Assembly: GCF_900110435.1 (NCBI RefSeq)
Contig: NZ_FODT01000001.1
Span: 434,001-498,000 of the forward strand
Reading direction: 5' to 3'
Length of the DNA: 64,000 bases
From: Rhodopseudomonas pseudopalustris
GTDB lineage: Bacteria > Pseudomonadota > Alphaproteobacteria > Rhizobiales > Xanthobacteraceae
Shown here: piece after piece, positions 1 to 16,344 of the stretch
Layout of the letters: every line of letters starts with the position of its first letter
How positions within the stretch are numbered: the stretch's first letter is position 1
Notes under the pieces: generated by a model
What the model was told of the DNA's origin: nothing
What the model saw: only the letters and a program-made list of their open reading frames with translations
The model's database searches: none
Position numbers and translations under genes: made by a program

Positions 1-1363
1 CCGTCATCGCGGCGAAGGGCTGGGCGATCTGGAAGGTGCGTCCTATGCCGATGGCCGCGAAGTCGGCTGGCGTCGACGGGTTGCGCCAAACGCCATCCCT
101 GTCGCGAACTGACACCGATCCGCTATCGGGCGCCAGAAATCCGGATAGCTGGTTGAACAGCGTCGTCTTGCCGGCGCCGTTCGGTCCGATCAACCCAAGG
201 ATTTCGCCCTCCCGCAAATTGAAGCTGACATTGTTGGTGACACGGAGACCGCCGAAGCTTTTTTCCAAATGCTCAACGCGCATTATCTCAGCTTTACTCT
301 CCACCGGCACGGCCGCCGGCGCTGACGTCGCCGACACGCCAGGACGATCGACCTGCGGATCATCTGACGTTTGCGGTTTCCCTCGCGGCAGCAACCCCAT
401 CAAGCCGCTCGGCATGAAGAGCGCAACCAGCATCAGGACCAACCCGTAGACGAAGCCATGCAGACCCGCGGCATGCGCACCAAGCCATCCGCGTGCTAGT
501 TCGGAAATCGGCACAAGAATTACAGCGCCGAGCAGCGGGCCAACCACTGTGCCGAGCCCACCGACCAGCGCAAACATCACGATTTGGATCGACGTCGTCA
601 GCGAAAACGCTGCGGCAGGCTCGATGAAGCTAAGATAGATCGCATGGAAGGTGCCGACCAGCGATGTCAACGCAGCTGATACGGCGACAGCAATGAGACG
701 CACCTTTACGGTGTTGACCCCAGCAGCGTTTGCGGCGGACTCCCGCTCGCGTGTCGCGATGAGGTAGAAGCCAATCCGATGCGAGTGGATCCACCAGGAT
801 ACGATAAGCGTCAGCAGGACCAACCCAAACGCGATAAGGAGCTGAGGTAGCCTTTCCTGGAACACCATCCATTCCAGGCCGATCTTGAGGGGAATCATTG
901 CCCCGGTGGCACCGCCTGTGAACTCCTTCCAGTGCAAAGCCAGCGCACGAAACACTTCCAGGAACGCGATGGTTGCAAGCGCGAAGAACGGCCCCTTGAG
1001 CCGGAAGCACGGATAGCTGATAGCAATTGCTACAACCACGGAAACCGCAGCCCCGACAAATAGCCCGATCCACGGGCTGACGCCGAGATTCATGAGAATG
1101 ATCCCGGCGTATGAGCCGATTCCGTAGAAGATGGTATGACCAAGCGACAGCTGTCCTGCAAAACCGCCGACGATGTTCCAAGCCGACGAAAGCGCAGCGA
1201 ATATGCATATCGTGATGAAGATGTGATAGACGAACTGATCGTCCATCGAGACCGGTACGATCAGGAGCGCGCACAGCAACGATGCAAGCAACACCTTGTA
1301 GAGCAATGAGAATCGCACCGCTGACTCTTTATGTGGGTTTGAAGACAACGACATAGCGGTCAT
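1..1363 (-). CDS. Fused LivM-LivG branched-chain amino acid-type ABC transporter (permease + ATPase), 3' end outside window
   Basis: One uninterrupted frame encodes a LivM-type permease followed by a LivG-type ATPase; I translated it by hand because it leaves the window. Residues about 15-340 hold hydrophobic spans with LivM landmarks (AGQLSLGHTIFYGIGSY, and a GGLGTVVGPLLGA stretch). A Ser/Pro/Ala-rich linker leads to an ATPase starting near residue 361 (MRVEHLEKSFGG) with Walker A GPNGAGKT at about 165-200 in window coordinates. The Q-loop, signature and Walker B lie beyond position 1. The start is the ATG at 1363, whose ATGA overlaps the livH stop, so the two are translationally coupled. 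The family imports branched-chain amino acids, amides or aromatic acids across the inner membrane; the substrate here is unknown. Separate livM and livG genes are more usual. Confidence 0.93.
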   Translation of the reverse strand, partial: MTAMSLSSNPHKESAVRFSLLYKVLLASLLCALLIVPVSMDDQFVYHIFITICIFAALSSAWNIVGGFAGQLSLGHTIFYGIGSYAGIILMNLGVSPWIGLFVGAAVSVVVAIAISYPCFRLKGPFFALATIAFLEVFRALALHWKEFTGGATGAMIPLKIGLEWMVFQERLPQLLIAFGLVLLTLIVSWWIHSHRIGFYLIATRERESAANAAGVNTVKVRLIAVAVSAALTSLVGTFHAIYLSFIEPAAAFSLTTSIQIVMFALVGGLGTVVGPLLGAVILVPISELARGWLGAHAAGLHGFVYGLVLMLVALFMPSGLMGLLPRGKPQTSDDPQVDRPGVSATSAPAAVPVESKAEIMRVEHLEKSFGGLRVTNNVSFNLREGEILGLIGPNGAGKTTLFNQLSGFLAPDSGSVSVRDRDGVWRNPSTPADFAAIGIGRTFQIAQPFAAMT

Positions 1364-2247
1364 TGGGACACATGGGAGAGGTTCAGGCGCGCACTGAAAA
1401 GACCCGTCGGCTTGACGATCAGAAGCAGGAGGAAAACGCCGAAAACAGCGATTTCGCGGAGGTCTGACCCTAGATAGAAGCCTGCAAAGCTATCGATAAG
1501 ACCGATGATCATCGCACCGACGAACGCGCCACCGATCGAGCCTAGGCCGCCCAAGACGACGACGACGAAGCACGTCAATGCGAAGTATGTCCCGATGCTT
1601 GGCGATGACGGATAGAGTGGCGCAACCGCTACTGCCGCAACGCCGACGCACGCGGATCCAACCCCAAATGTGAGGACGAATATCCAGTTGACGTTGATGC
1701 CCATAATCTGGGCCGCCGCCCTGTTCTGCGCGACAGCGCGGACAGCGCGGCCAGTCTGCGAGCGAGACAGGAACAGCTGCAGAGCCAACACGACAACGAT
1801 GGACAGCACGAAGATCAACAACTGACCGATCAACACACGAACAGGCCCGAGTTCGACGGAGGTTCGCAGGCCGTGAGGCGGCGTACTGGCGACGTCGGCG
1901 CCGAAAACCAGGAGCGCCAGATTGATCAACGCCGTCGACAGACCGACCGTTGCAAGAATCTGGATATGATCGTCCTGCGCTGACATCAACGGCTGTATAA
2001 GGAGCTTCTGGGTCAATGCGCCCAAACAAAACAGGATTGGAACGACCAGCACGATGGTCGCATAAGGATGAATGCCAACGGCATTGGTCAGCACATATGT
2101 GAGATACATTCCGATCATGAGAAACTCTCCATGAGCGAAATTGATAACCTTGATGATGCCGAATATCAGCGTCAGTCCGACGCTAACGATCGCGTAAAGC
2201 GCACCAAGCATGATTCCGTTGGCGATGATTTGCCAGAACGTATCCAC
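1360..2247 (-). CDS. LivH-type ABC transporter permease
   Basis: This is an inner-membrane permease of the branched-chain amino acid/amide importer family, about 295 aa with roughly eight hydrophobic spans. It opens with the typical NGIMLGALYAIVSVGLTLIFG segment, then INFAHGEF, and has GGLGSIGGAFVGA near the C-terminus. I place the start at the GTG at 2247 because GGGAGGAA lies five bases upstream; the open frame extends 16 codons further up to 2295, but that part is not LivH-like. It lies between the binding-protein gene and the fused livMG gene, overlapping the latter by ATGA. It would pair with the LivM half of that protein to form the translocation pore. Confidence 0.93.
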   Translation of the reverse strand: MDTFWQIIANGIMLGALYAIVSVGLTLIFGIIKVINFAHGEFLMIGMYLTYVLTNAVGIHPYATIVLVVPILFCLGALTQKLLIQPLMSAQDDHIQILATVGLSTALINLALLVFGADVASTPPHGLRTSVELGPVRVLIGQLLIFVLSIVVVLALQLFLSRSQTGRAVRAVAQNRAAAQIMGINVNWIFVLTFGVGSACVGVAAVAVAPLYPSSPSIGTYFALTCFVVVVLGGLGSIGGAFVGAMIIGLIDSFAGFYLGSDLREIAVFGVFLLLLIVKPTGLFSARLNLSHVSQ

Positions 2248-2307
2248 GTCTTCCTCCCGAGTCGGAGGTTGCCAGCGACTTGGCGTCGCCGGCAACCTTT
2301 CGATATC

Positions 2308-3522
2308 TTACTTAGCGAACTTCATCGGACTGATTGCGATCGTGTCCGGAAACACCGTGACCAGCTCGCCACCTTGCCATTGCATGCCGCTCATTCGCGC
2401 ACGCAAATTCTGATTTTCATCATCGAACTTGACTCCGAAGCCGACTGCGGTCGCCCCATCCGGAACATCGAGCTTCTTGATTTCCGAAACGACCATCTTG
2501 GCGTTCAGATCATCGAGCTTGCTCATCGATTCAAGAATAGCTTTCGCACCGAAGTAGTTGACGAGCGAATGACCGGACCGCGGCAGCGTTCCATATTTGG
2601 CCTGATATGCTGCGACAAATTCCCTCAGACCCGGCGTTCCCTCCATGCTCATTTTGAATTGCGGGAAATCGACGACGAGAACGCCCTCCATCGTCGCCTG
2701 ACCAACGGCCTCGAGCGTAGGCTGCATGGAGTATCCACCGCCGGCGCCAATAATGGCCTTCGGCTTGAACCCTGCTTCCCTGGCCTGCTGCAGGAACAGC
2801 GTCGTATCGTTCTGAAAAGAGTTTTGAAGGACGACATCGACGCCGCGCTGTTTCAGGTCAAGGACGATGGACGACATGTCGATGGTCGCCGGAGAATAGG
2901 ACTGAACGCTGACGAGGTTGAGACCCGCTCCGACGACCAGCCGCTTCTGATGGGCGGCAACGGAAGAGCCATAGCTGCCGTCCTCGTGAATAACGGCCAC
3001 CTTGATGTCTCTCGGCGCTCGGCCCAAATCCGGCGCAATCTTCTCCGTGATAATTTTGACCTCGAGGCGAGCCATATCCTCAGAGGTCGGATTGGTACGG
3101 AACAGATAGTTCATTTTACGTGTCGTGACTTCATCGGCGACCGCGCCAAGCTCGAAGTATGGAATTTGCGAAAGCTCGGCCACTTGGCTAGCGGCGATCG
3201 AACGCGCCGACGAGTAGGATCCGAAAATCGCCTTAACACGCTCGCGCGAGATCAACCTTCGCGCTTCGCCAACCGCCTGATTGTTGTCGACGGCATCGCC
3301 GCGTTCCAGGATGATCTTCTCACCCTTCAGCCCACCCTTCTTGTTTACTTCATCGACCGCAATCTCGAGGCCGCGTGCACTCTCCTGCCCAAGCAGCGCA
3401 AGCTGGCCACTGAAGGGATAGAGAGCGCCGACCTTGACATCGGCATAGGCCGCTGGCGCGGCTACGAGCGCGGAAGTGAAAAGAAGCCCCGCTAACTGTG
3501 TCGATCTGATTTTATTGCCCAA
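2308..3522 (-). CDS. Periplasmic substrate-binding protein, LivJ/LivK type
   Basis: This 404-residue secreted protein belongs to the periplasmic binding family of branched-chain amino acid-type ABC importers. Residues 1-27 form a signal peptide (basic start, hydrophobic core, cleavage near AYA-DVK). The mature protein begins with KVGALYPFSGQLALLGQE, the usual first strand and ligand loop. The start codon is TTG, supported by AGGAGGAA about five bases upstream and by the complete signal peptide. It is the first transporter gene of the unit and follows the GMC oxidoreductase gene by 121 bases. The ligand cannot be named from sequence; the neighbouring hydrolase and oxidoreductase suggest a compound degraded after uptake. 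Confidence 0.93.
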   Translation of the reverse strand: MGNKIRSTQLAGLLFTSALVAAPAAYADVKVGALYPFSGQLALLGQESARGLEIAVDEVNKKGGLKGEKIILERGDAVDNNQAVGEARRLISRERVKAIFGSYSSARSIAASQVAELSQIPYFELGAVADEVTTRKMNYLFRTNPTSEDMARLEVKIITEKIAPDLGRAPRDIKVAVIHEDGSYGSSVAAHQKRLVVGAGLNLVSVQSYSPATIDMSSIVLDLKQRGVDVVLQNSFQNDTTLFLQQAREAGFKPKAIIGAGGGYSMQPTLEAVGQATMEGVLVVDFPQFKMSMEGTPGLREFVAAYQAKYGTLPRSGHSLVNYFGAKAILESMSKLDDLNAKMVVSEIKKLDVPDGATAVGFGVKFDDENQNLRARMSGMQWQGGELVTVFPDTIAISPMKFAK

Positions 3523-3618
3523 GTATTCCTCCTATTGTTTTATTGAGCTATTGAAGCGATGGTACAGACTCGCGGCTCGCGCACAGCGCTAATATCGTTG
3601 GATTGACGATCAAACGAG

Positions 3619-3634
3619 CGAGACCAAAATCTCG
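3619..3634 (-). promoter_or_regulatory. Small hairpin between the GMC oxidoreductase and binding-protein genes
   Basis: A perfect 5-bp stem (CGAGA/TCTCG) with a six-base loop lies in the 121-base gap between the oxidoreductase stop and the TTG start of the binding-protein gene. It could be a weak terminator or an RNA processing site that uncouples enzyme and transporter expression. No long U-run follows it, so a functional role is uncertain. Confidence 0.25.
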
Positions 3635-3643
3635 TTCTGAAGA

Positions 3644-5413
3644 TCATGCAGGACACTTTCCTGCTCCCTGTCCGCGCCACTGCGTCAGGATTGCGTCGCT
3701 CATCTTCTCTGCGATCATGATCGTCGGAATATTCGTGTTTGCGCGAGGAACGGCAGGCATGATCGAAGCATCGATGACTCGCAGACCATCGACGCCATGA
3801 ACTCGTCCGTCCGAGGCGACAACCGCTTCGTTATCGTCGAACCGTCCCATCCGGCACGTACCAGACGCATGCCAGACCCCGTGAACAGCCCCGCGAACGA
3901 ACTGCTCAAGAACGTCGTCGTCGGCTAGCACGTGCTCGATCTGCGGTCCCTCGACGACCAGCCGGCGAAGGAGCTGCCGCCTGAACCAGTGCGGACCGTC
4001 CAGGCAACTCGCCAGAATGGATGTCAGAACCTTGTTCTTGGTGGTCACCCGATTGAGGTCGCGGACGCGTTCGCTGTAGCTCGACGGGAACGTGTCGGAC
4101 GTGACGGCCTGCATCTGCGGCGTTTCGAACAGCCGTCCTGCAAAACGAACGGCCAGCTTCAGGCGTTCGAGATCGCGGTAGTCTGACAGCATGTCGAAAT
4201 TGACGTCAGGCTCGGCGGCGGGATCGGACGTCGACAGCGTCACTCGTCCGCGCGAGTACGATTTGTTGACGAACGCAACCAGCGAGCCCAACTGCTTGCC
4301 GACCGGATGCCAGCCACTCTTGCTGAGGCCGAACATATACATGTCACTCGGTCCGCAATCCTGCACACCCGAACTGTAACGCAGGGCAACATGAATGTGC
4401 CGTGTCAGGCTATTCGGAAGGCGCGCGAATGGCTTTATCCAACCGGACAGCGACAATGCCGGATGCTCGTTCAGATTCCGACCGACTCCCGACCGGTCCG
4501 CCATCACGGACACGCCGATCTTTTGCAGGTCCCCGCCCGGCCCGATGCCCGCGCGCATGAGCAGCGCAGGAGAATGAATCGCGCCGGCCGAAACGATAGT
4601 TTCACGCGCGGAGATCCGGACGGGCCCCGCGGCCGTATTGGCTTCAGCACCGCGCACCGTATGTCCCTCGACGACCAGTCGCTGGACCGTGACGTTGGTG
4701 AGGATCGTGAGATTCTTGCGCTGGCGGGTGCTGTTGTCTAGATACGCAGTCGAAGCCGAAACGCGGCGGTCGTACGCGTTTGAGATCGAAATCGGAAAGT
4801 AGCCATCGGTGAACTGAGCATTCTGATCTTGCAGCGCTTCGTAGCCTGCGCCGGCAAAGGAGTCCGCGACCGATTTTGAAAAATCGGGCCAGACATTGCG
4901 CTGGATTCGGCGGACCGGAATTCGACCGTCCTTGCCGTGAAGCGGACCAGTGAAGTCCATGTCCCGTTCGAGCTTGATGAAATATGGCAGAACGTCCGAC
5001 CACGACCAGCCGGACGCTCCCTGTGCCTCCCACTCGTCATAGTCGAGCGGAATGCCGCGATTTGCCTGCATGTCGTTGATGCTTGATCCACCGCCGATTA
5101 CACGCGCCTGTTCATAGCGCGTGATCCGGGACGGCAACTGCGGCTGGTTATGCGGCGGGCTGGTGATGGCAACCTTGAGATTGGACCATGTGTTCTTCGG
5201 ATCGAAATAGGCTGCCCGCGGATAGCTGCTGAGGAGGTCCGGCTCGACCTGATCAGGCGGCTGATCACGCCCGGCTTCGACCAGCAGCACGCGCACGCCG
5301 AAGTCCGACGACAGCCGATGTGCCAGCACGCAACCTGCCGAACCACCTCCGATGATGAGGAAATCGCATTCCAAGACGGGCACGCTATCTGCTGACATCG
5401 TCCAAGCATTCAC
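3644..5413 (-). CDS. GMC-family FAD-dependent alcohol oxidoreductase (choline dehydrogenase-like)
   Basis: This 589-aa flavoprotein oxidises alcohol groups, probably in the cytoplasm or on the inner membrane, as no signal peptide is visible. The N-terminus has the FAD-binding Rossmann motif GGGSAGCVLAHRLS followed by the acidic strand end VEAG. The GMC signature region around EQARVIGGGSSIND is present. The C-terminal catalytic block has WHASGTCRMG (active-site His) and later ANTNIPTIMIAEKM, the usual His-then-Asn arrangement. The ATG at 5413 lies six bases after the stop of the amidohydrolase gene and follows an AAGAAG ribosome site; a second in-frame Met five codons on is possible. Co-transcription with an amidohydrolase and a LIV-type importer suggests stepwise catabolism of an imported compound. 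Confidence 0.92.
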   Translation of the reverse strand: MNAWTMSADSVPVLECDFLIIGGGSAGCVLAHRLSSDFGVRVLLVEAGRDQPPDQVEPDLLSSYPRAAYFDPKNTWSNLKVAITSPPHNQPQLPSRITRYEQARVIGGGSSINDMQANRGIPLDYDEWEAQGASGWSWSDVLPYFIKLERDMDFTGPLHGKDGRIPVRRIQRNVWPDFSKSVADSFAGAGYEALQDQNAQFTDGYFPISISNAYDRRVSASTAYLDNSTRQRKNLTILTNVTVQRLVVEGHTVRGAEANTAAGPVRISARETIVSAGAIHSPALLMRAGIGPGGDLQKIGVSVMADRSGVGRNLNEHPALSLSGWIKPFARLPNSLTRHIHVALRYSSGVQDCGPSDMYMFGLSKSGWHPVGKQLGSLVAFVNKSYSRGRVTLSTSDPAAEPDVNFDMLSDYRDLERLKLAVRFAGRLFETPQMQAVTSDTFPSSYSERVRDLNRVTTKNKVLTSILASCLDGPHWFRRQLLRRLVVEGPQIEHVLADDDVLEQFVRGAVHGVWHASGTCRMGRFDDNEAVVASDGRVHGVDGLRVIDASIMPAVPRANTNIPTIMIAEKMSDAILTQWRGQGAGKCPA

Positions 5414-5419
5414 TTCTTG

Positions 5420-6643
5420 TCAGGCAACTATGCCGAGCTCATTGAGGATCGTTCTGTCGAACATCCCCTGGCGAATCAGATCGCCGGATGAGAAATGGAC
5501 AACGCCACGCGCCACAACTGTTTCGATATTGAGGTCGTCATCCAGGAATACAAGATCCGCATCCGCGCCACGGGCGAGCTTGCCCTTGCTCGACAGGCCA
5601 GCGATCGCTGCGGGATTGCTCGTTACCGGTCCGAGAGCCTCGGCGATATCCACGCCTTCCTCACGCACCCATCGCTTCCATACGGCATGCAGCGAGCGCA
5701 CCGGCATATAGTTCGCAACCTTCGGCTTGTTCTCGCCAGCCTCTTCTTTCGGGGGCGCGCCATTGCCGTCGGAGCTCATCGTGATCCGGCTTGCCGGCAC
5801 TCCAGCCGCCCGGAGAATTCCGTATGCCTTTGACGGCAGAGTCGCGCGTGAGAAATTGTTCTCCGGCGAGTAGTTCGCGCCAATATCGACATATCCGCCG
5901 CGCTTACCCCAATCGATGGCATCGCTCATGTAACCATCAGTCTGGTTGACGTGAGAGGGTAGGAACTGAGTGATCGGAAGCCCTGTGCGATCGACAATGT
6001 CGAATACTGGGCGCAACACCTGCTTGAGATAAGGGGGAACCTGAAGGCACAAATAACCCGACTTACCCGACAAGCGACCGGCAAGGAGGCTCTCCGTCGC
6101 AGCCTTGGCGATGTACTGGGCGCCGGCGCCGAAGCTGTCATAACCATAACCCAGTTCGGAGATCGAAATCTCTCCGACGCCAATGATCTCATTGACGTAA
6201 GCTAAGTCGGTGCGGATGCGCCCGGTCAGCGTGGGGATCGGATGCTCTAGCGTCGCCCCGGTGACGCAATAGGCGCTGATGCCATCCTGGATGAAGGCCT
6301 TCGTCTTCGCAACCAGCGACGCCATATTCTTCGTCGTGGCGTCGAAGCCCAGCATGCCAATCACACTTGTGATGCCCGCGCGAACCAGCTGGCTGGTCTG
6401 CAGCTCCGGCGCGCGGCTTGCAAAGCCAAGGCCACCGCCACCGCCGAGGACATGGACGTGATTATCGACAAAGCCGGGGCAGACCACTTTTCCCGCCGCG
6501 TCGATTTCAGTCAGTTCGATTCCGCTCGCCTTGAAAGTTCCACGGTCCACGATGTCCACGATCCGCTCAGAGCTAATCACGATGTCCTTTTCGCCCAGAC
6601 ACTGGGGCGCGAACACCTTTGCGTTGCGAATGACTGTAACCAA
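5420..6643 (-). CDS. Amidohydrolase related to isoaspartyl dipeptidase (IadA-like)
   Basis: This 407-aa protein is a metal-dependent amidohydrolase closest in pattern to isoaspartyl dipeptidase IadA. The first metal pair is in GFVDNHVHVLGGGG (residues about 57-70), later metal His residues lie in LPSHVN, and the catalytic Asp is in SSDGNGAPP. The C-terminal GADADLVFLDDD closes the small beta-sandwich domain. The position that in IadA carries the carbamylated Lys (GVKCAIS) reads GVGEISIS here, so a Glu seems to occupy the bridging site. That predicts a related but different hydrolase, perhaps acting on another N-acyl or cyclic amide. It is the first gene of the catabolic unit and diverges from the LysR gene. 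Confidence 0.88.
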   Translation of the reverse strand: MVTVIRNAKVFAPQCLGEKDIVISSERIVDIVDRGTFKASGIELTEIDAAGKVVCPGFVDNHVHVLGGGGGLGFASRAPELQTSQLVRAGITSVIGMLGFDATTKNMASLVAKTKAFIQDGISAYCVTGATLEHPIPTLTGRIRTDLAYVNEIIGVGEISISELGYGYDSFGAGAQYIAKAATESLLAGRLSGKSGYLCLQVPPYLKQVLRPVFDIVDRTGLPITQFLPSHVNQTDGYMSDAIDWGKRGGYVDIGANYSPENNFSRATLPSKAYGILRAAGVPASRITMSSDGNGAPPKEEAGENKPKVANYMPVRSLHAVWKRWVREEGVDIAEALGPVTSNPAAIAGLSSKGKLARGADADLVFLDDDLNIETVVARGVVHFSSGDLIRQGMFDRTILNELGIVA

Positions 6644-6673
6644 CTAATCCACTCCAATTTGCTCGCGAGCGTA

Positions 6674-6692
6674 GAGACGCGCTCAACGTCTC
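6674..6692. promoter_or_regulatory. Candidate operator palindrome in the amidohydrolase/LysR divergent region
   Basis: A perfect inverted repeat GAGACG-N7-CGTCTC lies 31 bases upstream of the amidohydrolase start, within the 153-base divergent region. LysR-type regulators commonly bind interrupted palindromes in such gaps. Position and symmetry support the call; there is no direct evidence of binding. Confidence 0.4.
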
Positions 6693-6796
6693 GCGTTGGA
6701 CGTCGTGCGGGGCGTTCTCCCTTGATGTCCATTGACTAGAACAGCCTCCGCTCGTAAATCAAATTAAATAAACAACTCAATCCACAAGGCGCACTT

Positions 6797-7714
6797 ATGA
6801 ATCTTCGACAGATCCGCGCGTTTCTCCTCGTTGCGAAATATCGAAGCTTTACGCGCGCAGCAGACGAGCTTGGACTTACGCAAGCAGCTGTAAGCTTGAT
6901 GATACGGGAGTTCGAAGCGGGCATTGGCATGCCCGTATTTGCACGATCGACACGGTCAATTCACATCACCCCCGTTGGCCAAGGCCTTCAGCCCGAACTC
7001 GAACGAATCCTTAGCGATCTCGACAAGGTCTTTTCGGCGGTGAGCGCGTCTATCAGCATTCGGAAAGGAAATGTCCGCGTCGCGTCGCTGTCATCAATTG
7101 CCGTTCGCCTTTTGCCCAGCACCATCGCCAGGTGCAGGCAACAGCATCCGGCGATCTCCATTTCAATTCGCGACGACACCAGCGCCAAAGTGCTGGAGCA
7201 GGTGAAGAGCGCAGCGGCAGACTTCGGGATCAGTACCAACGATGCGCCCTCAACAGAGATCGATTTCACCCCGCTCTTTTCGGAAAAATTCTCGGTCGTC
7301 TGCAGCCGGGCCCATCCTTTTGCGAAACTGCATAGCATTGGATGGGGAAAACTGTGCGAAACGCCATATATTGGCATGACTGAAGAAACAGGTATTGGGC
7401 GCTTGATTGGTCAGATCGAGCAACGGCAATCGCGCAATCTGAATACTGTGATCCAAGTATCGCAGCTTTCCACTGTCTTGGGCCAGCTAGAGGAAAATCT
7501 TGGAGTAGCGCTGTTGCCCGAGACAGCCAAACCGTCACCACGGCATCACGCGCTAACATCGATTCCTCTTTCAGGCCTCAATATAGTTCGCAGTATTGGG
7601 ATTTTGCGCCGAGTGGACCGTCCACTTTCGCCCGCCGCCAGCGCGGTCGCAGACGCGATCGCTATCGTTGTACGAAATCGATTTGAGGAGACCAACATCC
7701 AGGTTCTCACGTAG
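6797..7714 (+). CDS. LysR-family transcriptional regulator
   Basis: This 305-aa regulator has an N-terminal winged helix-turn-helix (residues 1-60: MNLRQIRAFLLVAKYRSFTRAADELGLTQAAVSLMI, written here as two parts RQIRAFLLV and TQAAVSLMI) and a periplasmic-binding-like effector domain (about 90-295). It is transcribed away from the amidohydrolase-oxidoreductase-transporter unit with a 153-base gap, the classic arrangement for a LysR activator of a divergent catabolic operon. The effector is probably the imported compound or a breakdown product. The gene marks the right edge of the intact cassette; the DNA downstream is decayed. Confidence 0.93.
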   Translation: MNLRQIRAFLLVAKYRSFTRAADELGLTQAAVSLMIREFEAGIGMPVFARSTRSIHITPVGQGLQPELERILSDLDKVFSAVSASISIRKGNVRVASLSSIAVRLLPSTIARCRQQHPAISISIRDDTSAKVLEQVKSAAADFGISTNDAPSTEIDFTPLFSEKFSVVCSRAHPFAKLHSIGWGKLCETPYIGMTEETGIGRLIGQIEQRQSRNLNTVIQVSQLSTVLGQLEENLGVALLPETAKPSPRHHALTSIPLSGLNIVRSIGILRRVDRPLSPAASAVADAIAIVVRNRFEETNIQVLT

Positions 7715-7844
7715 ATTGGGGAGGCTGCAGAGCCCCGCGCGGCGGCATAATCCTCTACGCGTAGCATCGAGCACTCAGGCGATCGCTACGAGCGCCAATC
7801 CAACGTCCAGGCGCAGAACCTATGACGCACACTTTCTCCCACAG

Positions 7845-8080
7845 AGGCAATCTCGCCGGCACCGGAAGCGGTTGAGCAACTTGGCCGATTCATGCGGGAG
7901 CAGATCGCCGATAGCGGGGCTCCGTGCCGGAAGGCCAAATTTCGGGCCGTGGTCGATCGGATCGAAGTGGACGAGAACACCGTCCGGATCATCAGAGACC
8001 GCGCGACGCTCGAACAGGTCACCGCACTAAACCGACCCTGTGGCCAGGGTTGCAGCTCTGTCGGCAAATGGCGCACCTAA
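7845..8080 (+). pseudogene. Remnant A: C-terminal end of a large serine recombinase
   Basis: Only the last 75 or so codons of a recombinase survive. Recognisable pieces are APCRKAKFRAVVDRIEVD, then TVRIIRDRATLEQ, ending GKWRT-stop. The same block (FR-K-..RA/S-V-D-.IE-D-..-VRII) recurs in remnant B at 8.9 kb and, more distantly, in remnant C at 16.1 kb. The end lies on CAAATGGCGCACC, nearly identical to the ends of B and C. No N-terminal resolvase domain or catalytic Ser is present, so it cannot be active. Confidence 0.68.
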
Positions 8081-8321
8081 CAGAACTACGAATTCCTCAA
8101 AGTTACTAGATAGCCCTGGCTCGAGCATGGTGCAAACAGCGGTCAAGTTATGAAACGCCGCGGTGCCGCGCTGAAACAACTCTGTCAAAGTCCGGCACCT
8201 ATTTGAACCACGCGCAGATTGTTCGTCGTGCCAGTTTTGGCGAAGGGAATCCCGCTCGGTCATCCCCTTTCGACCAATTTCAAGACGGTGCCGTGCGGGC
8301 CGAGCCGCTCAGGCACCGCCC

Positions 8322-8605
8322 TATTCTTCACCCCGGACCTGCACAGAATGGCCAGGCGATACTACTCGGTAGTTGCGCTGAAGCACGTCGTAGGCCGGCG
8401 CGCGCACGGACTCTTGATCTCGGCTTGCCGTGAGCTCCTTCGCAACGAAGCACTGCCGCGGATCAGCGCCACCGCGAGCAGACGCTTGGTGTAAGGATGC
8501 GTCGGGTTCTCGGACACCGCTTCGCGCGAACCGATTTTGACGATCTCCGAGATACAAGAGGCGACCCGGTGGCTGACCCGCTCGACCACCTGACCACCAT
8601 CCTCT
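8322..8605 (-). pseudogene. Remnant of a dipeptide/oligopeptide-type ABC transporter ATPase (DppF/GsiA C-terminus)
   Basis: The frame reads [10 protein letters not shown], then [26 protein letters not shown]. This is the region after the Walker B and H-loop in DppF/OppF/GsiA-type ATPases, where the family has VVE-hydrophobic-SHRVAVMYLG and ENPxHPYTxxLL. Near position 8425 the similarity jumps to another frame, which continues [10 protein letters not shown] and ends in VSPGHSVQ, matching the family's C-terminal tail. The Walker motifs and N-terminal two thirds are gone. The fragment is therefore frameshifted and truncated, a relic of a lost peptide importer, lying between the two recombinase scars. 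Confidence 0.7.
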
Positions 8606-8879
8606 TCGATTTGGCCACACGCCAGCTCCCGCATAAGCGAGGTGACAGCCATCGTGGCCCGTAACATCGATCCGATGGAACACGCCATCCTTTCGTTCTG
8701 CGCATTCAATACAGGCCGCAGACAGCGGCCATCAAGGAAACAGAACGATTGCTAAGCGAGACCACCCCGGTATCCGATGGCGCGCCGTTTCGGTGAGGCG
8801 TGGAGTGGACGGCGCCTACATTCGGCGCCCAAGCGACGCTGTAAGATTCGAGTGACTATCCCGTCAATCATCAACGCGG

Positions 8880-9075
8880 CAGATAGTGCCGGCTATGGAG
8901 CTCCGTTTCGAAAGGCCAATTCTCGGTCCGTGATCGATCAGATTGAAGCGGACGACCACGCCGTCCGGATCATCCCAGGCAGCGCCGCGCGCGAACAGGT
9001 CCTCGCAGGAAAAACGTCCATGCGACCAGTGTCGCAGTCTGTCCGCAAATGGCGCGCCATTCAGAACAAAACTGC
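8880..9075 (+). pseudogene. Remnant B: C-terminal end of a large serine recombinase
   Basis: A second relic parallel to remnant A: YGAPFRKANSRSVIDQIEAD, then HAVRIIPGSAAREQVLAG and VRKWRA. The alignment with A is collinear over about 180 bases, including the terminal CAAATGGCGCGCC. Upstream coding sequence is absent, so this is a decayed copy. It suggests an earlier integration event that used the same type of enzyme. Confidence 0.65.
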
Positions 9076-9557
9076 GAACTCGTATGTTATTGAAATAGCG
9101 CTACAATTCTGCAGGTGTTACCCGTTCCGGGTTCCTCGCGGTTATGGCCAAGTTCACGGGCGATAGGCTGCAGTCGGTTGAACAGCGGACATCTGCCCGC
9201 AATTGAGCTTCGCCGCTCGTGAGCCATAGCAGACTCAATGTATGAGGTTTACTTTGTCGTAGAGACCAAGGCCCCCTCCTGTCTGAGAGTGGCGACTCGG
9301 ACGCGACCACCAGCGGCGCTGTCGACCCGACCAGCCGCGTGCAGCGGGGCGCTTCCACACAGTCTTGCATTGCGGTCCTGGCCGACCCAAACGCAGCTCA
9401 GGCCATCGGGTAGCAATGACGATATTCTTGCTGTCGGCGCCGACCTTACAGATCACCCTTCGCAACGGGACGCCAGAAGTGGTGCGGTCGTGGAAGCGAA
9501 ATCCTGACGTCGTCGCGATAAGCGTAATCGCAGTCACCAAGCCGCGATGTCGCGGGA
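9076..9557. other. Non-coding or decayed stretch
   Basis: Between recombinase remnant B and the AraC regulator gene I see only short, mutually overlapping open frames with no recognisable family motif, no tRNA and no clear repeat. It is probably eroded island DNA. Confidence 0.45.
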
Positions 9558-10514
9558 TCAACTTCGAGTGCGGCGATATGCCAGTGGCGTGCGACCCGTC
9601 GCCTTCCGAAACGCTGACACGAAATGGCTCGATTCACTGAAACCCAGCATGTTCGATATCTTGCCAATCGGGAACGCTGTCGTTGATAGCAGCGTCTTGG
9701 CCTGTTCCATCCTCATATGGCGATGATATCGGATTGGAGACAAGCCGTACTTCTTCTGGAAGGCGCGGACAAACGAGAATGCCGGCATGTCGACGGACGT
9801 CGCAAGCATTCCGAGATCGATGGTGCCACAGATGTGATCCCGCATCAGTTGCAGTGCTCGGTCGAGGTCAGGATCCAGACCGCGAGATCGAACCGCCATG
9901 CTGGTGCAGTAGCGCGCTGTCGAATAGTGGGAAACGACCCTCCCGGCCATCAAGATCGCTGCTTCTTCGGCGAAGGCACGGCTCGTGGGCCGGGGATCAT
10001 TGATGTTTTCGACTACTTCTCTGCCGAGGGAGACCAGGAACGGGTCGTCCGTGCCCAGCATTGGATCTTCCATTTCGATATCGATCGAATGAGAATGGAT
10101 CGCCGAGCCGATCGCGCGCGCCGTCTCCTCCGCGAAGAATACTTTCAGAAATTTGACGGTGCTACTCGCCGAAACGCTCGCCGATAGGGTGGCGTTGGCT
10201 GGCGCGACGCGAAATCGCCCGCTCTGAAGCGGGCCGGTTCTTATGGTGGTTTCACCGCAGAGCAAAGTCATGTCGTCCACAGGCGTCAACACCATCGATA
10301 GTTCGCAGAAGGCTTTGGTGGAGAGAGACATCTCTCTTTGAACAACGCCCGGCCAGTCGATAGACCAGTATCCCACCTCGATCTTTCTTTGAGACCATGA
10401 CCTGATCGCGGATCGGGGGGGCCTCCCGACCTGTTCGCTTGCACGGTCCACCGCAGACACCCTCTTCGGTTCGGCCAATGCAGTTCTCCAGTTCGAGTCG
10501 AATCGGCGACGCAA
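9558..10514 (-). CDS. AraC-family transcriptional regulator
   Basis: This 318-aa protein ends in a typical AraC/XylS DNA-binding domain (about residues 215-318). The first helix-turn-helix is around DLGMLATSVDMPAFSFVRAF. The second holds PIGKISNMLGFSESSHFVSAF and is followed by RKATGRTPLAYRR. The N-terminal 200 residues form an effector-type domain of unknown ligand. The likely start is a TTG at 10514 with GGGAG eight bases upstream; no in-frame ATG occurs until about residue 63. It stands alone among decayed DNA, with no obvious target operon nearby other than the chemoreceptor and c-di-GMP genes to the right. Confidence 0.85.
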   Translation of the reverse strand: MRRRFDSNWRTALAEPKRVSAVDRASEQVGRPPRSAIRSWSQRKIEVGYWSIDWPGVVQREMSLSTKAFCELSMVLTPVDDMTLLCGETTIRTGPLQSGRFRVAPANATLSASVSASSTVKFLKVFFAEETARAIGSAIHSHSIDIEMEDPMLGTDDPFLVSLGREVVENINDPRPTSRAFAEEAAILMAGRVVSHYSTARYCTSMAVRSRGLDPDLDRALQLMRDHICGTIDLGMLATSVDMPAFSFVRAFQKKYGLSPIRYHRHMRMEQAKTLLSTTAFPIGKISNMLGFSESSHFVSAFRKATGRTPLAYRRTRS

Positions 10515-11287
10515 TATTGTTAGCTCCCGACATCGTTCTAGTGATTGCCCCCAATCAATCCGGATCAGGCTCGATTTCCCGGAGCACGACCAGAAACCGC
10601 ATCGCCTGTCCGGATGCCGAACGAGCGAATCTGCGAGTGAAAGTTGTTTTCATTCCTGTGGGTCCAGCTCGTTCTCCCGCAGTCCGATGAACGGTGGCGC
10701 TCTACGCGTTGGCTGCTGATCTGCCGCCCCGAGATCGAAGACATCATCCCGGGCAGGTCGTTTTCCTGGACGTTCCAGCCGGGACGAATGACCGGCGAAT
10801 CAATCGCGGCCAGCGGCATGAAGGGTGGTAGCAAGTGCCGCGATCGGTGCGGCGAATAGCGGAGCACCTCACCGCGTTCAATTGTCAGATCGATATGACG
10901 AAAATATCGCAAGAGACGCGCTGGACGACGCAGATCAACCCGCGCCGGCAATGCACGGCAATAAGAATTAGCAAGAACGCAAGTTATACGCGCCAATCTC
11001 AACATCCGACAGTTTGGTTCGAAATGATTCTTTCACGGGGACGCTTGGCCGCCTGAGCGGGGCCGGATCGACACACTGTTCGGATGGACGACAAACGGTC
11101 GGCGTCGGCCTGTAGCAAACAACGACTCCGTCCTTCGAGCTCCCCAGTGCAAGTTTCCTCCGTCCGTGCAGGAGTTCCTCCGGCCATACTGTTCAATGAA
11201 GTACTTCGCTTGTCGTTGTCGCGCCGACCGGGATCGCGGCCAGGTCTGAATGAGTGGGCATCAGAAGCTATCGACGGGAATCCTGAA
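10515..11287. other. Long intergenic region without a supported gene
   Basis: This 773-base gap lies between the divergent AraC and chemoreceptor genes. Open frames exist on both strands (one of 146 codons at 10565-11005 minus), but none shows a recognisable domain, ribosome site or plausible codon use. It must hold the promoters of both flanking genes. Confidence 0.5.
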
Positions 11288-13354
11288 ATGACCATCAAAA
11301 CCACGCGCAGCTCCGAACCGCGAACGTCCGGATTATTGGACTTGTTCACCAACAGGAAAATCGGCACCAAGGTCGCGGTCGGATTTGTTCTGATCCAGGT
11401 CCTGATGGTGGTTCTCGCCGTCCTGAATTATTTCTCATTCGAAAATGTCAGGCAGGCCTTTGTGGCGCTCGACCAGCGCGTGCAGGTCGTGGGCATCGTC
11501 CGCGACGTCGATCGCGGCTTCACCGCCTTTCGTCGGTTCGTGCGCGAATACAGCCTCACCGGTGACGAAGCGCTGATCCACGAGGCCGAGAGCCGGCAGA
11601 ACGCCCTACGGGAGAGCATCGCGCAGGGCCTGAAGGAGATCCACGATCCGTCTCGCTTGGCCAAGATGAGGGAGATCAGTCAGACATTCGAAGCGTACAC
11701 CACGTCGTTCGCAGACGTGATCCGGATGCGTCGCGAGCAGAGCACGCTGATCCGAGAGGTGCTGGATCCCACCGGTCAGAAGGCACGGCTCAAGCTCGAG
11801 CAACTTCAAGCAGCGACTACGGCCGAGGTGGGCGGAGAGACCACTTCGCTCCTCGTCGCGGAGGCGGTGAAGCAACTGCTACTGTTGAGAATCGATGTCA
11901 ACAAGGTGCTGGGTCGTCACGACCAGGCCGCCGCGGACGCCGCGGAGAAGGCCTTGGTCGACCTCAGGGGAGCGATGTCGGCGCTGAAGATTGCGATCGG
12001 TTTATCGGCCGGCCGCAAGCAAATCGGCGAGATCGAGGTCGACATCAAGAACTACGCGGATGCTTATCAAAAGGCCTCGCGCGTCGCTCACGAGGTCGAA
12101 GTGCTGGTCAATGGCGCGATGCCGAAAGTCGCGACGGTGATCGCGGACGGTGCGGCGAGCATCAAGCAGTCCGGGATTGCCGACCAGCAGATGATCGCCA
12201 AGAACACCGAAGCATTGCTCGACGACACCAAGAGCCAAATCCTGATCATCACAGTCGGTGCGGTGGCAATAGGCCTGGTGCTCGCCTGGCTGATCGGCCG
12301 CGCAATCTCCCGTCCGATCATTCGGATGTCGGGTGCAATGAAGGAATTAGCCGGCGGGAATCTTCGCGTCGATGTCCCAGGCTCTGGCCGCCTCGACGAG
12401 ATCGGCTTAATGGCGTGCACAGTCGAGGTGTTCAAGCGCAACGCTCTTGAAGTGGAACGTTTGAAGACCGAGCAAGAAGAAGCGGAGAGCCGGGTCGCTG
12501 CCGAACATAAGGCGGAGATGCATCGGCTTGCCGACAATTTTGAAGGCGCAGTCGGTGAGATTATTCAGACCGTGACCTCGGCGTCCACCGAGCTCGAAGC
12601 TTCCGCGGGGTCGCTGACCACGACCGCGGACCGTTCTCAGCAGCTTGCCACGACTGTGGCAGCGGCATCCGAACAGGCTTCCGCCAACGTCCAGTCGGTG
12701 GCGTCCGCGACCGAGGAGATGGCGTCGTCGATATCCGAGATCAGCCGTCAGGTGCAGACTTCGGCGCGGATCGCGGGCGAGGCTGTCGATCAGGCCCGCA
12801 AGACCAACGATCGCATCGGTCAACTTGCCGACGCAGCGAATCGGATCGGCGACGTCGTCGATCTGATCAACACCATCGCCGGCCAGACCAATCTGCTGGC
12901 GCTCAACGCCACCATCGAGGCAGCCCGCGCCGGCGACGCCGGCCGCGGCTTCGCGGTCGTGGCTCAGGAGGTCAAGGCGCTCGCCGAGCAGACGGCCAAG
13001 GCCACCGGGGAGATCAGCCAGCAAGTTTCCGGAATGCAGGCCGCGACCCAGGATTCGGTCGGGGCCATCCGGGAGATCGGCGGTACCATCGAGCGGATGT
13101 CGGAGATCGCCTCGACGATCGCCTCCGCGGTGGAGGAACAGGGCGCGGCCACGCAGGAGATCTCCCGCAACGTGCAGCAGGCCGCGCAAGGCACCCAGCA
13201 GGTCTCGTCGAACATCTGCGATGTTCAGCGGGGCGCCACTGAGACCGGTTCGGCGTCGACCCAAGTGCTGGCGGCTGTGCAATCGCTGTCGCGGGACAGC
13301 AACCGGCTCAAGGACGAGGTCACCCGTTTCGTGGAGACGGTGCGAGCGGCGTGA
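11288..13354 (+). CDS. Methyl-accepting chemotaxis protein (transmembrane chemoreceptor)
   Basis: This 688-aa receptor signals to the CheA kinase. Residues about 27-49 form TM1, a long helical sensor region (about 50-317) faces the periplasm, and TM2 is near 318-338 ([20 protein letters not shown]). A HAMP linker follows, then the cytoplasmic coiled coil with the conserved tip [20 protein letters not shown] and [13 protein letters not shown]. The roughly 270-residue all-helical sensor fits a helical bimodular (HBM) domain, which binds small acids or amines in other bacteria. I chose the ATG at 11288; the open frame continues 68 codons upstream without receptor features. No pentapeptide CheR tether is seen at the C-terminus (ETVRAA). 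It lies beside a c-di-GMP enzyme gene on the same strand. Confidence 0.93.
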
Positions 13355-13481
13355 GGGGGTTGGGAGCGGCGTCGATGCGTCAATCGACCGTCGTCGGATA
13401 TTTGTGAAGCCGAGGTGTCGAGATGTCGCAAGATAGCCGCCCAAACCGCCGAACTCTCGCCAAGTGCACTGGAACGCGGCT

Positions 13482-15713
13482 ATGATCTCAGCCCCGCTTC
13501 CGGACAACGAGCAGGCGCGGCTCGCCGCGCTGCGCCGATATGATATTCTCGATACCCCGCCGGAGGATTGTTTCGACATATTCCCTCGGCTGGTCGTCCG
13601 GGCCATCGGCGCCCCCTCGGCCGTGATCAGCTTTGTCGACAGAGAGCGTCAATGGTTCAAGGCCCGGATCAATGTCGGCGATCAACAGACACCGCGCGAT
13701 ATAGCGTTCTGCGCGCATGCGATCCTTTTTGAGCGCCCGCTCGTCGTTGCGGATGCGACGATCGATCCGCGGTTCCACGACAACCCGCTGGTGACCGCAC
13801 CGGGCGGCATGCGGTTCTACGCAGGTGCCCCGATACGAACCGCGGATGGCTTCCCTATCGGCGTGCTCTGCGCGATCGACAAGGTCCCGCGCCTCCTCGG
13901 AAAAGCGCAGCTGGAGACGCTCAGAGAGCTGGCGTCGCTGGTCGCCGACCAGCTCGAACTGCGACTGGCGAATCGGCGTCTCGCTCGCGAACTCGCGGAA
14001 CGCGAACGCACCGAGAACCATCTGCTGTCGATGAGCCGAACGCTAGAACTGTCGAACCTGCGCCTGGATGCGGCACTCAACAACTTTCTCCATGGGCTGT
14101 GCATGTTCGACGGCGACCGCAAGGTGGTGGTGTCGAATGCACGATTCTCCGAAATCTACTCTCTGGAACCCGACGAAATCGAGTGCGGTGTTCCTTTGAG
14201 CGCGATCCAGTCGGTGTGCCGGGAACGCGGGACGTTCGTGGAAACCTGGTCGGAACGTCGGCTTGGTCGATCTTCGCACGAGATCTCCGAAGTGAGTTCG
14301 CTTCTAGACGGGCGGGCGATCCTGGTGCGCTGTCAACCAGTCGCAGGTGGTGGCTGGATGACGGTGCACGAGGACATCACCGAACGCTATCGCAGCGAAC
14401 AGCAAATCGCCCATATGGCCCGCCACGATCTGTTGACCGGCCTGCTCAACCGCGGAGCCTTCCACGAAAGGATGGATGAGGCTTGTGCACGCCTGCGCCG
14501 CTGGGGTGAGACCTTCTCGGTCATCATGCTGGACCTCGACCGCTTCAAGCTGGTCAACGATTCGCTCGGACATCCGGCGGGGGATGCCTTGCTGCGCGCG
14601 GTCGTCTCGCGACTCAAGGCGTGCATCCGCGAAACGGATGTCCTGGCGCGACTCGGCGGTGACGAGTTCGCCGTGCTGCAGACGAGGACGAAGGACTCCT
14701 ACGAAGAGGCGGTGGCATTCGCGGACCGTATCGTCAATTGTCTGATCGATCCGATCGAAATCGAAGGACATCAGCTCGTCATCAGCACCAGCGCGGGGAT
14801 CGCGCTGGCCCCCCAGCACGGCACGGATTCCGACGAACTGATCAAAAACGCCGACCTCGCGCTCTATCAAGCCAAGGCGGCCGGTCGAAACGGATACGTC
14901 ACCTTCGAAACGGCGATGAAGGATCGTGCCAATGCGCGCCAACAACTCGAAGGAGAGCTGCGACAAGCCATTCTGCACCGAGAATTCGATCTGTACTATC
15001 AGCCTCAAGTGGACGCAAGGTCTGGACGAGTGATCGGCGCGGAGGCGCTGCTCCGCTGGCGCCACCCAAGGCGAGGCTTCGTGCCGCCGTCCGAATTCAT
15101 TCCGATCGCGGAGGAAACCGGCCTGATCGAGAAACTCGGCGAATGGGTTCTGACGGAGGCTACCACCGAAGCCATTCGCTGGCCGGCCCCCATCAAACTC
15201 GCGATCAATCTCTCTCCGATCCAGCTGACTCGCGGCAAGTTGGTCGACACTGTGACGCAAGCTCTGCGATTCTCTGGGCTGCCTCCCGGACGCTTGGAGG
15301 TGGAGATCACGGAAACCGTGTTTCTGGAGGACGAAGTCAACAACCTCGCCGTCATTAGGCAGCTACGGGCGCTCGGGGTATCGGTCGCCCTAGACGATTT
15401 CGGGACAGGATACTCGTCGCTCAGCTATCTGACGAGGTTTCCGTTCGATCAAATCAAAATCGACAAGTTCTTCAGCATGAACCTGATCGACCGACGCGAC
15501 TGCGCCGCAATCGTCTCCTCGGTAATAACCCTAGCGCGAGGATTGGGTATCTCGACTGTCGCCGAAGGCGTTGAGACTGTGCGTCAGTTCGAGCTGCTGC
15601 GGGAGGCGGGCGTCGACTACTTCCAGGGATATCTGTTCGGTCCCCCAGTGCCGGCTTCGGCGCTCGATTTCGGTACTGCTCAAGCCGTCGCGCGCATTAC
15701 GGAGGTTGCCTAA
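13482..15713 (+). CDS. GAF-PAS-GGDEF-EAL bifunctional cyclic-di-GMP synthase/phosphodiesterase
   Basis: This 743-aa protein has an N-terminal GAF domain (about 15-165), a PAS-like domain (about 200-305), a GGDEF domain and an EAL domain. The cyclase motif is intact (RLGGDEF, GGDEF at residue 392), with the RETD inhibitory site five residues upstream. The phosphodiesterase is also intact: EALLRW at 521, NLSPIQL, EITE, DDFGTGYSSL, KIDKFF, AEGVET and QGYLFG. It can therefore probably both make and degrade c-di-GMP, gated by the GAF and PAS sensors. No transmembrane segment is visible. The ATG at 13482 is preferred over a GTG six codons upstream because GGA-rich sequence lies at the right distance. 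It may link chemosensing to motility or attachment. Confidence 0.93.
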   Translation: MISAPLPDNEQARLAALRRYDILDTPPEDCFDIFPRLVVRAIGAPSAVISFVDRERQWFKARINVGDQQTPRDIAFCAHAILFERPLVVADATIDPRFHDNPLVTAPGGMRFYAGAPIRTADGFPIGVLCAIDKVPRLLGKAQLETLRELASLVADQLELRLANRRLARELAERERTENHLLSMSRTLELSNLRLDAALNNFLHGLCMFDGDRKVVVSNARFSEIYSLEPDEIECGVPLSAIQSVCRERGTFVETWSERRLGRSSHEISEVSSLLDGRAILVRCQPVAGGGWMTVHEDITERYRSEQQIAHMARHDLLTGLLNRGAFHERMDEACARLRRWGETFSVIMLDLDRFKLVNDSLGHPAGDALLRAVVSRLKACIRETDVLARLGGDEFAVLQTRTKDSYEEAVAFADRIVNCLIDPIEIEGHQLVISTSAGIALAPQHGTDSDELIKNADLALYQAKAAGRNGYVTFETAMKDRANARQQLEGELRQAILHREFDLYYQPQVDARSGRVIGAEALLRWRHPRRGFVPPSEFIPIAEETGLIEKLGEWVLTEATTEAIRWPAPIKLAINLSPIQLTRGKLVDTVTQALRFSGLPPGRLEVEITETVFLEDEVNNLAVIRQLRALGVSVALDDFGTGYSSLSYLTRFPFDQIKIDKFFSMNLIDRRDCAAIVSSVITLARGLGISTVAEGVETVRQFELLREAGVDYFQGYLFGPPVPASALDFGTAQAVARITEVA

Positions 15714-15734
15714 CAGAATATAGGCGTACGCTGT

Positions 15735-16267
15735 TGACCAAACAGCAGCTGGACGGCCCGGAGATTGCCCGTTCGGCGGTGGATCAGCGTGGCTTTCGTC
15801 CGTCGGCCGCCTGAAGTCGCTGATCGAGCGCCAGGCGGCGAAGAGCGAGTCCGCCGACGACCGGCTGTTGGCTCTGCAGAGGCAATTCACCGACTGCGAA
15901 GATCGCATGAAGCGACTTTATCGCTCTATTGAAGACGGCATCGTTGAGCTCGACGACATCCTACGAGAGCGGTCGGCCTCCCTGAAGGCACAACGGGAGC
16001 GGGCCAAGGCGGCCCTCGACCATGCCCGCGCCGAATGCGGCATGGCGGCCGCCGTCAACGCGGAGAAATTCGACGCATTCGCCCGAATGATGAACACAAA
16101 ACTGGTTAAGGGGGACACCAACACCCGCAAGAGCTATATCCGCTTAATCATCGACGCGGTCGAGGTCGACGATCATGCTATCCGGATCGTCGGCAGCAAG
16201 GATATCCTCCAGGCTGCCATTGCCGGCAAACACCGAGAACGGAAATGTCGGTGGTTTTGTACGCAAA
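15735..16267 (+). pseudogene. Remnant C: C-terminal part of a large serine recombinase abutting tRNA-Arg
   Basis: The stretch begins with recombinase-like coding that is out of frame or interrupted, then an open frame from 15868 encodes a charged coiled coil followed by YIRLIIDAVEVDDHAIRIVG and SKDILQAAIAG. This is the coiled coil and C-terminal block of large serine (resolvase-type) recombinases. The N-terminal catalytic domain is missing. The open frame runs on antisense through the tRNA to 16371, producing the artefactual tail ARPKGFEPLTPRF. It ends on CAAATGGCGCGCC, where TGG is the complement of the tRNA CCA end. The position shows the integration site of the island. Confidence 0.75.
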
Positions 16268-16344
16268 TGGCGCGCCCGAAAGGATTCGAACCTCTGACCC
16301 CCAGATTCGTAGTCTGGTGCTCTATCCAGCTGAGCTACGGGCGC
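16268..16344 (-). tRNA. tRNA-Arg (anticodon ACG), CCA encoded
   Basis: The complement gives a 77-nt cloverleaf: acceptor 5' GCGCCCG paired with 3' CGGGCGC, D-arm GCTC...GAGC, anticodon stem CCAGA/TCTGG with loop CTACGAA (anticodon ACG at 16308-16310), a TTCGAATC T-loop, discriminator G and encoded CCA at 16268-16270. ACG is normally modified to ICG and reads CGU/CGC/CGA. The 3' end coincides with the end of a serine recombinase remnant. Confidence 0.97.

Follow-up and report, generated by a model that had tools for sequence, protein, structure and literature searches.

Remnants of integrase genes beside tRNA-Arg(ACG)

The window analyzed here, a stretch of 64,000 nucleotides from Rhodopseudomonas pseudopalustris (contig NZ_FODT01000001.1, positions 434,001 to 498,000), carries in its left part three decayed 3΄ ends of large serine recombinase (LSR) genes, the last of which runs into the gene for tRNA-Arg(ACG). 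We call these remnants scars a, b and c, the LSR gene int, and the DNA segments that they may delimit elements 1 to 3, numbered from left to right. The tblastn identities given are to the intact LSRs L020 (Afipia birgiae) and L005 (genome G222). The features are as follows.

1..7840, no strand: outer foreign DNA (element 1 and beyond); G+C content 0.56-0.60; Pfam
7841..8068, + strand: scar a, decayed LSR gene 3΄ end (element 1); tblastn with L020, 50.6% over 7841-8074
8069..8125, + strand: junction a, core TGGCGCACC followed by a decayed tail; putative left end of element 2; tail consensus score 27.5
8867..9049, + strand: scar b, decayed LSR gene 3΄ end (element 2); tblastn with L020, 60.4% over 8903-9058; with L005, 40% over 8867-9058
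9050..9106, + strand: junction b, core TGGCGCGCC followed by the well preserved tail WRAIQNKTANSYVIEIALQ; putative left end of element 3
15811..16294, + strand: scar c, decayed LSR gene 3΄ end running into the antisense strand of the tRNA gene (attL type); tblastn with L005
16268..16344, − strand: tRNA-Arg(ACG), the target; ARAGORN; TGG at 16268 is the complement of the encoded CCA

The initial annotation had noted three LSR 3΄-end remnants in the same orientation, and tblastn with intact LSRs found all three on the plus strand. All are broken. Scar c resembles L005, which itself runs into tRNA-Arg(ACG) in its genome, with 84.6% identity over 143 residues (15811-16239) and, after a frame change near 16229-16239, 90.9% identity over 16229-16294. 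Scars a and b are nearer to the other subfamily (50-60% identity to L020). Pfam has no LSR family for the three remnants alone, of which just the C-terminal part remains; LSR membership follows instead from the tblastn homology to intact LSRs.

A 13-base string, CAAATGGCGCRCC, has three exact matches in the window (8065, 9046 and 16264, all on the plus strand) and none in 100 shuffled sequences (mean 0.00), as the initial annotation had noted. With up to two mismatches allowed, the string is less striking (15 sites, 8.65 expected; 3 of 100 shuffles reach 15). It encodes the int codons K-W-R-A and is also the end of the tRNA, its third copy covering the encoded CCA end of tRNA-Arg(ACG). The claim that the last scar lies at the tRNA 3΄ end was likewise borne out, scar c being an attL-type junction at which int is read into the antisense tRNA.

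As in a tRNA-targeted island, scar c reads into tRNA-Arg(ACG) and the G+C content is lower (0.56-0.64 at 1-16 kb, compared with 0.64-0.69 rightwards). The low-G+C stretch extends approximately 8-10 kb left of the window. As in tandem accretion, an attachment (att) site lies at every junction and the integrase is lost; junctions b and c are clear, and junction a is weak but above random. No relaxase or conjugation genes were found among the 11 open reading frame references of the window scanned with Pfam, all within 1-16.4 kb.

Scars a and b continue into a conserved coding tail

Repeated integration at one tRNA gene, as first proposed, was largely right in so far as the serine recombinases concerned target tRNA genes, but neither scar a nor scar b leads from int into a tRNA. 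We rejected the possibility that they continue into a decayed tRNA 3΄ half, because the match after the 13-base string was no better than that of random windows (random-window fractions for a and b of 0.52 and 0.60 in one test, and 0.22 and 0.91 in another). The sequences after the string match each other (random-window fraction 0.0008), and junction a aligns with junction b. Beyond the core, scar b gives way to a tail of 57 bases that is both conserved and coding (WRAIQNKTANSYVIEIAI-stop). When 50,000 windows were drawn from the window and compared with the tail consensus, 99 reached the match at a and 5 reached that at b, none being higher. Junction a is weak, yet better than 99.8% of random windows; junction b has no mismatch to a 29-base tail pattern and a tail score of 79, with the stop codon lost. 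Judged by their sequence, scars a and b are int+tail junctions and not tRNA junctions.

The first 29 bases of the tail, with at most three mismatches, were found in 55 of 296 genomes of the bacterial family, and a reversed control was found in none of the listed genomes. At the same threshold we gathered 131 distinct tails, a set that therefore does not contain scar a. Conservation begins at TGG and drops after the stop codon. In 96 of the 131 tails, the reading frame stays open up to a stop at codon 19, and codon 19 across the tails is TAA (86), TGA (9) or TAG (5). In codons 10-18, single-base differences comprised 203 synonymous and 142 nonsynonymous changes, where 18 and 63, respectively, are possible. 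The stop at codon 19 and the synonymous excess therefore indicate that the tail has been kept as a protein end, WRAIQNKTANSYVIEIAI.

At least 12 of the 131 tails, scar b included, directly follow LSR sequence; this is a lower bound, since some tails have little upstream sequence. In L116, an intact frame of 593 residues with all three LSR domains is fused in-frame to the tail, and in L118 the frame is open with a match limited to the C-terminal ~166 residues. The remaining fused cases are mostly decayed.

The genome of the window contains two further tails (L110:1425-8132 on contig C11 and L111:7943 on contig C5), of which one lies on the 3΄ side of tRNA-Arg(TCG) at a distance of 6.6 kb. Two tails at L081:16127-16309 (genome G141) are inverted relative to each other, and the ~110 bases that separate them contain LSR-like sequence. 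Plasmids carry the tail too: it was found in 18 records from Bradyrhizobium, Nitrobacter and Methylocystis (H31-H48), 10 of which are typed as conjugative.

LSR genes that end in tRNA genes

A relative of scar c is present in 107 of the 296 genomes, the window's own genome counted, and in a first search 22 of the 29 other loci fetched had an opposite-strand tRNA gene at the LSR 3΄ end. Searching named genomes with L020 yielded 66 loci. Going by record titles, most are from Hyphomicrobiales, with some from other Alphaproteobacteria (a few), Hydrogenedentes (one), Clostridia (two) and Anaerolineales (one). In 46 of the 66 loci, the LSR frame enters the antisense 3΄ end of tRNA-Arg or tRNA-Glu. 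An intact recombinase at tRNA-Arg(ACG), of the kind that the initial annotation had suggested seeking, is L005. Seven of the other 20 loci are cut short or distant. Among the 13 that remain, L166, L173, L175, L178 and L208 keep a tRNA-like end after KWR, L195 reads past tRNA-Glu, and in L169 and L170 the contig ends right at KWR. On pSymB of S. meliloti ml21, the LSR ends in tRNA-Arg(CCG).

The Resolvase, Recombinase and Zn_ribbon_recom domains are found in the three intact relatives L005, L020 and L116, and the domain-bearing part of the LSR is whole in the tRNA-fused genes. The neighbors of the Afipia birgiae LSR include genes for a TrwC relaxase, a TrwB/TraG-type coupling protein and a C5 methylase; with relaxase and coupling protein nearby, some members of the family look mobilizable by conjugation. 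Phage records contained just distant relatives of the LSR (best 48.7%).

Two intact-looking recombinases of other kinds in the window's genome (L001 and L002, contigs C12 and C6) have 3΄ ends that overlap tRNA-Met and tRNA-Asn; the habit of ending at a tRNA may be wider than this LSR family.

The tail as the far end of inserts

We compared empty with occupied tRNA genes in three cases. At tRNA-Arg(ACG), the flank in G028 ends directly on the tRNA; in G125 this flank leads into TGGCGCGCC and the tail, with the tRNA 3,269 bases further on; the gene adjoining the tRNA there lies on another contig in the window's genome. At tRNA-Arg(TCG), the sequence of G025 that matches the flank of the tail in Afipia birgiae (G188) stops 35 bases before the tRNA. 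In G188 itself, the flank match stops ~25-30 bases before the tail, and an intact LSR sits on tRNA-Arg(TCG) ~23 kb further. At tRNA-Glu(TTC), the flank of the G254 tail reaches the tRNA within ~20-25 bases in G154 and G258, and in G254 the LSR on tRNA-Glu(TTC) lies 58.6 kb from the tail. Because the tail is the far end of inserts in these three comparisons, we place attP inside the integrase gene.

Among the 26 tail/LSR pairs listed within 150 kb on one contig (several pairs sharing one genome), the tail is upstream on the same strand in 20 (13 genomes), and two are int+tail junctions. The intact tailed LSR L116 is followed 26 kb later by an LSR on tRNA-Glu. Genome G053 carries an int+tail at 141 kb and an int+tRNA-Glu at 168 kb on one contig and is a less decayed counterpart of the window array.

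Loci L006, L009, L014 and L015 had prompted the idea of a crossover in the anticodon loop, which we rejected because the empty and occupied comparisons place the change in TGG(C/T)GC; these four loci may hold elements of another type that entered the same tRNA later. In G190 (L113:6728-6776), a 48-49-base copy of the 3΄ half of tRNA-Arg(TCG) lies ~5.5 kb from the tRNA, as left by an element with another type of integrase.

A dyad spanning integrase codons and tail

The attP sites of serine integrases form dyads. At one offset, the codons of GVRSFVRKW match the reverse complement of the tail's first part (GTTCGCAGTTTTATTCTGAATGG), with a mean identity of 0.723 over 66 distinct int ends; other offsets give 0.236 on average and 0.396 at most. 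The int ends were chosen by protein motif, a choice for which the control with synonymously redrawn codons allows (0.544, with a maximum of 0.565 in 1000 trials). Codon use at the common residue is nearly fixed: AGT in 38/38 for Ser, TTT in 51/51 for Phe and GTT in 63/66 for Val. The int codons and the tail codons thus form the two arms of a dyad around GGCGCGCC, which is seen in intact relatives. The int+tail fusion of L116, the tail as the far end of inserts and the int/tail dyad all place attP within the integrase gene.

A probable tandem array of integrative elements

In our interpretation, large serine integrases that target tRNA genes and have attP inside int built up a tandem array of integrative elements at tRNA-Arg(ACG), which has since decayed; we assign this interpretation a probability of roughly 0.8. 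The attP would be an imperfect dyad of ~50 bp in the last int codons (GVRSFVRK-W-R-A / IQNKTANSYVIEIAI-stop) with TGGCGCGCC in the middle. Crossover would occur in the shared TGG(C/T)GC, the complement of the tRNA 3΄ end (CCA plus discriminator), and it is from this shared string that we infer the exact bases. Integration would join int to the antisense tRNA (attL), yielding an integrase with a tRNA-coded C-terminus, and the old tail would stay at the far end of the element (attR). A later element would again enter at the tRNA and shift the older ones outwards, so that the joint of two elements would restore an int+tail of the kind seen in scars a and b.

The order in the window would accordingly be element 1, the junction at 8069, element 2, the junction at 9050, element 3 and tRNA-Arg. 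At junction a, element 2, now ~1 kb long, would begin directly after the decayed int of element 1; at junction b, element 3 would in the same way follow the decayed int of element 2; and scar c would be the attL-type end of the innermost element (9050-16267). We likewise infer the number and order of these events, and any effect of the changed C-terminus.

Several observations weigh against this interpretation. The 3,269-bp insert of G125 had no match to the three LSR queries. Among relatives with the Arg(TCG) flank, the flank meets the tRNA 3΄ end in G025 only; in G168 and G273 (L311 and L314), tRNA-Arg(TCG) adjoins the same flank in reversed orientation, and in G205, G065 and G229 no tRNA was found in the locus with this flank. 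Four of the 26 listed tail/LSR pairs have an unfitting order or strand, and a Brevundimonas plasmid LSR ends KWRTTMASKPTAAR, which is neither tRNA nor tail. The scars of the window fit the int arm poorly (12, 9 and 13 of 23 for a, b and c, respectively), which we attribute to decay. No LSR lies directly upstream in 119 of the 131 tails; this is expected for left ends, and these tails are mostly untraced to a tRNA. Finally, 23 of the 131 tails (e.g. L094, L093, L120 and L283) have an inverted copy of their first arm 7-9 bases upstream, compared with 0 in a control window 355-400 bases upstream. This inverted arm may represent another kind of attP, one that lacks int. Sequence resembling the arm abuts tRNA-Arg(TCG) in L110 and L112 and tRNA-Arg(ACG) in L069.

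Cargo genes, genus relatives and alternative explanations

The genes between scars b and c, and those of the outer DNA, were assigned with Pfam. The outer 7840 bases contain genes for branched-chain amino-acid transport, a GMC oxidoreductase, an amidohydrolase and LysR. The inner genes are as follows.

9213..15715, no strand: element 3 cargo block
9558-10514, − strand: AraC regulator
11084-13354, + strand: methyl-accepting chemotaxis protein (MCP)
13464-15713, + strand: GAF-PAS-GGDEF-EAL protein

The whole block occurs in only 2 of 16 genomes of the genus, namely the window's own and G108; the element 3 cargo is accessory. The MCP, c-di-GMP and AraC genes, which the initial annotation saw as kept between scars, do lie between tail b and scar c, but they need not have come with the LSR, because in G108 the block sits away from any tRNA. 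There it is 88% identical over 9552-15715 and lies beside a DUF6538 protein, which we take to be a tyrosine integrase; at the limit used, the flanks of the block in G108 had no match in the window's genome. The 45 kb read around the block yielded no tRNA, tail or LSR, which also counts against our interpretation and is, in part, what the initial annotation had regarded as refuting its own reading (the same genes in relatives with no tRNA-linked gap). The AraC-MCP-GGDEF/EAL genes may accordingly never have belonged to an LSR element, having reached the tRNA by another integrase or a rearrangement between old att remnants. We consider this a serious possibility, if not the expected one, given that the shared block of the window (9213-15715) sits between tail b and scar c, and that the block as a whole is absent from the other 14 genomes of the genus.

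A second alternative is that scars a and b derive from the local duplication of one decayed int+tail segment, so that fewer than three elements entered. They belong to the same LSR subfamily and align over their full length (7857-8233 with 8834-9226), past the tail as well. However, the alignment past the tail is weak and gapped, and tandem int+tail junctions are known elsewhere (the 12 fused tails), and we regard a duplication as less likely than not. That the tail is merely a DNA end, such as an attP arm or a transposon-like terminal repeat, with a reading frame by chance, would suit the 119 tails without an LSR upstream and the terminal-repeat-like inverted arm of 23 tails, but is very improbable in view of the codon 19 stop in 96 of 131 tails with three different stop codons, the synonymous excess and the in-frame fusion to an intact LSR in L116.

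To return to the array at tRNA-Arg(ACG), the sequence left of the tRNA was examined in every other genome of the genus but G223 (14 of 15). The alignment with relatives suggested by the initial annotation yielded blastn matches to the window that were short or domain-level only (a 42-base match, an MCP-domain match in G089, and the tail in G125 and G141). The left end of the oldest layer was not found: no tail (≤7 mismatches) and no LSR remnant were found at 334-434 kb of the contig (all but 100 bases), and a DNA search of the genus with the stretch left of the window gave partial conserved matches only, without the island flank. Genome G141 (L068:1123-1721 and L068:4619-8916) has a second, decayed copy of tRNA-Arg(ACG) with an LSR remnant 17 kb from the real tRNA; the genes between the two copies are nitrogenase-like (anfH/D/K-like by eye).

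Relation to known elements and implications

The family resembles known LSR elements, including integrative and mobilizable elements (IMEs) with serine recombinases, in the Resolvase, Recombinase and Zn_ribbon_recom domains of its intact members and in the relaxase and coupling genes of Afipia birgiae. Passages of one account describe serine-recombinase IMEs as disrupting dispensable genes (PMC5704250); in contrast, the family studied here targets the tRNA 3΄ end and has attP within the int reading frame. The same passages describe the tandem accretion of integrative and conjugative elements (ICEs), IMEs and cis-mobilizable elements (CIMEs), in which decayed elements adjoin at one site with att sites between them (PMC5704250). 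The window array is similar, and differs in having serine integrases at a tRNA and joints that restore the integrase reading frame.

An attP in the integrase gene itself and a tRNA target are described, in passages on the archaeal suicidal integrases of SSV1, pTN3 and pT26-2, for tyrosine recombinases that are split into inactive parts and are stated there to be exclusively archaeal (PMC8371274). The serine recombinase here loses only its last codons and gains others, and is not split into inactive parts. In the integration-dependent immunity of mycobacteriophage BPs, as outlined in passages of PMC4557955, attP lies in a phage gene and integration shortens the C-terminus of the protein; that gene encodes the repressor, whereas here it encodes the integrase, whose end is replaced by tRNA-coded residues. 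The literature searched (mostly titles and the beginnings of abstracts, and few subscription papers) yielded neither an LSR whose own gene contains attP nor this tRNA-targeting family. As far as we have seen, the array is of a known kind and the integrase arrangement is an undescribed variant.

Serine integrases are prized tools for genome engineering, and ones that land in tRNA genes and leave the tRNA whole would be both useful and telling. The defined ends of these elements, the tail on one side and KWR with tRNA-antisense residues on the other, let islands be delimited in Hyphomicrobiales genomes, including those without an integrase. An attP within the integrase gene might also act as a switch, with the circular form encoding the WRAIQNKTANSYVIEIAI tail and the integrated form a tRNA-antisense C-terminus, the two differing in direction, activity or stability. 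This idea is speculative and we hold it doubtful; if it were true, insertion of the element would alter the very integrase that carries it out. The location of attP in a bacterial serine integrase gene makes the regulation of the integrase by integration testable.

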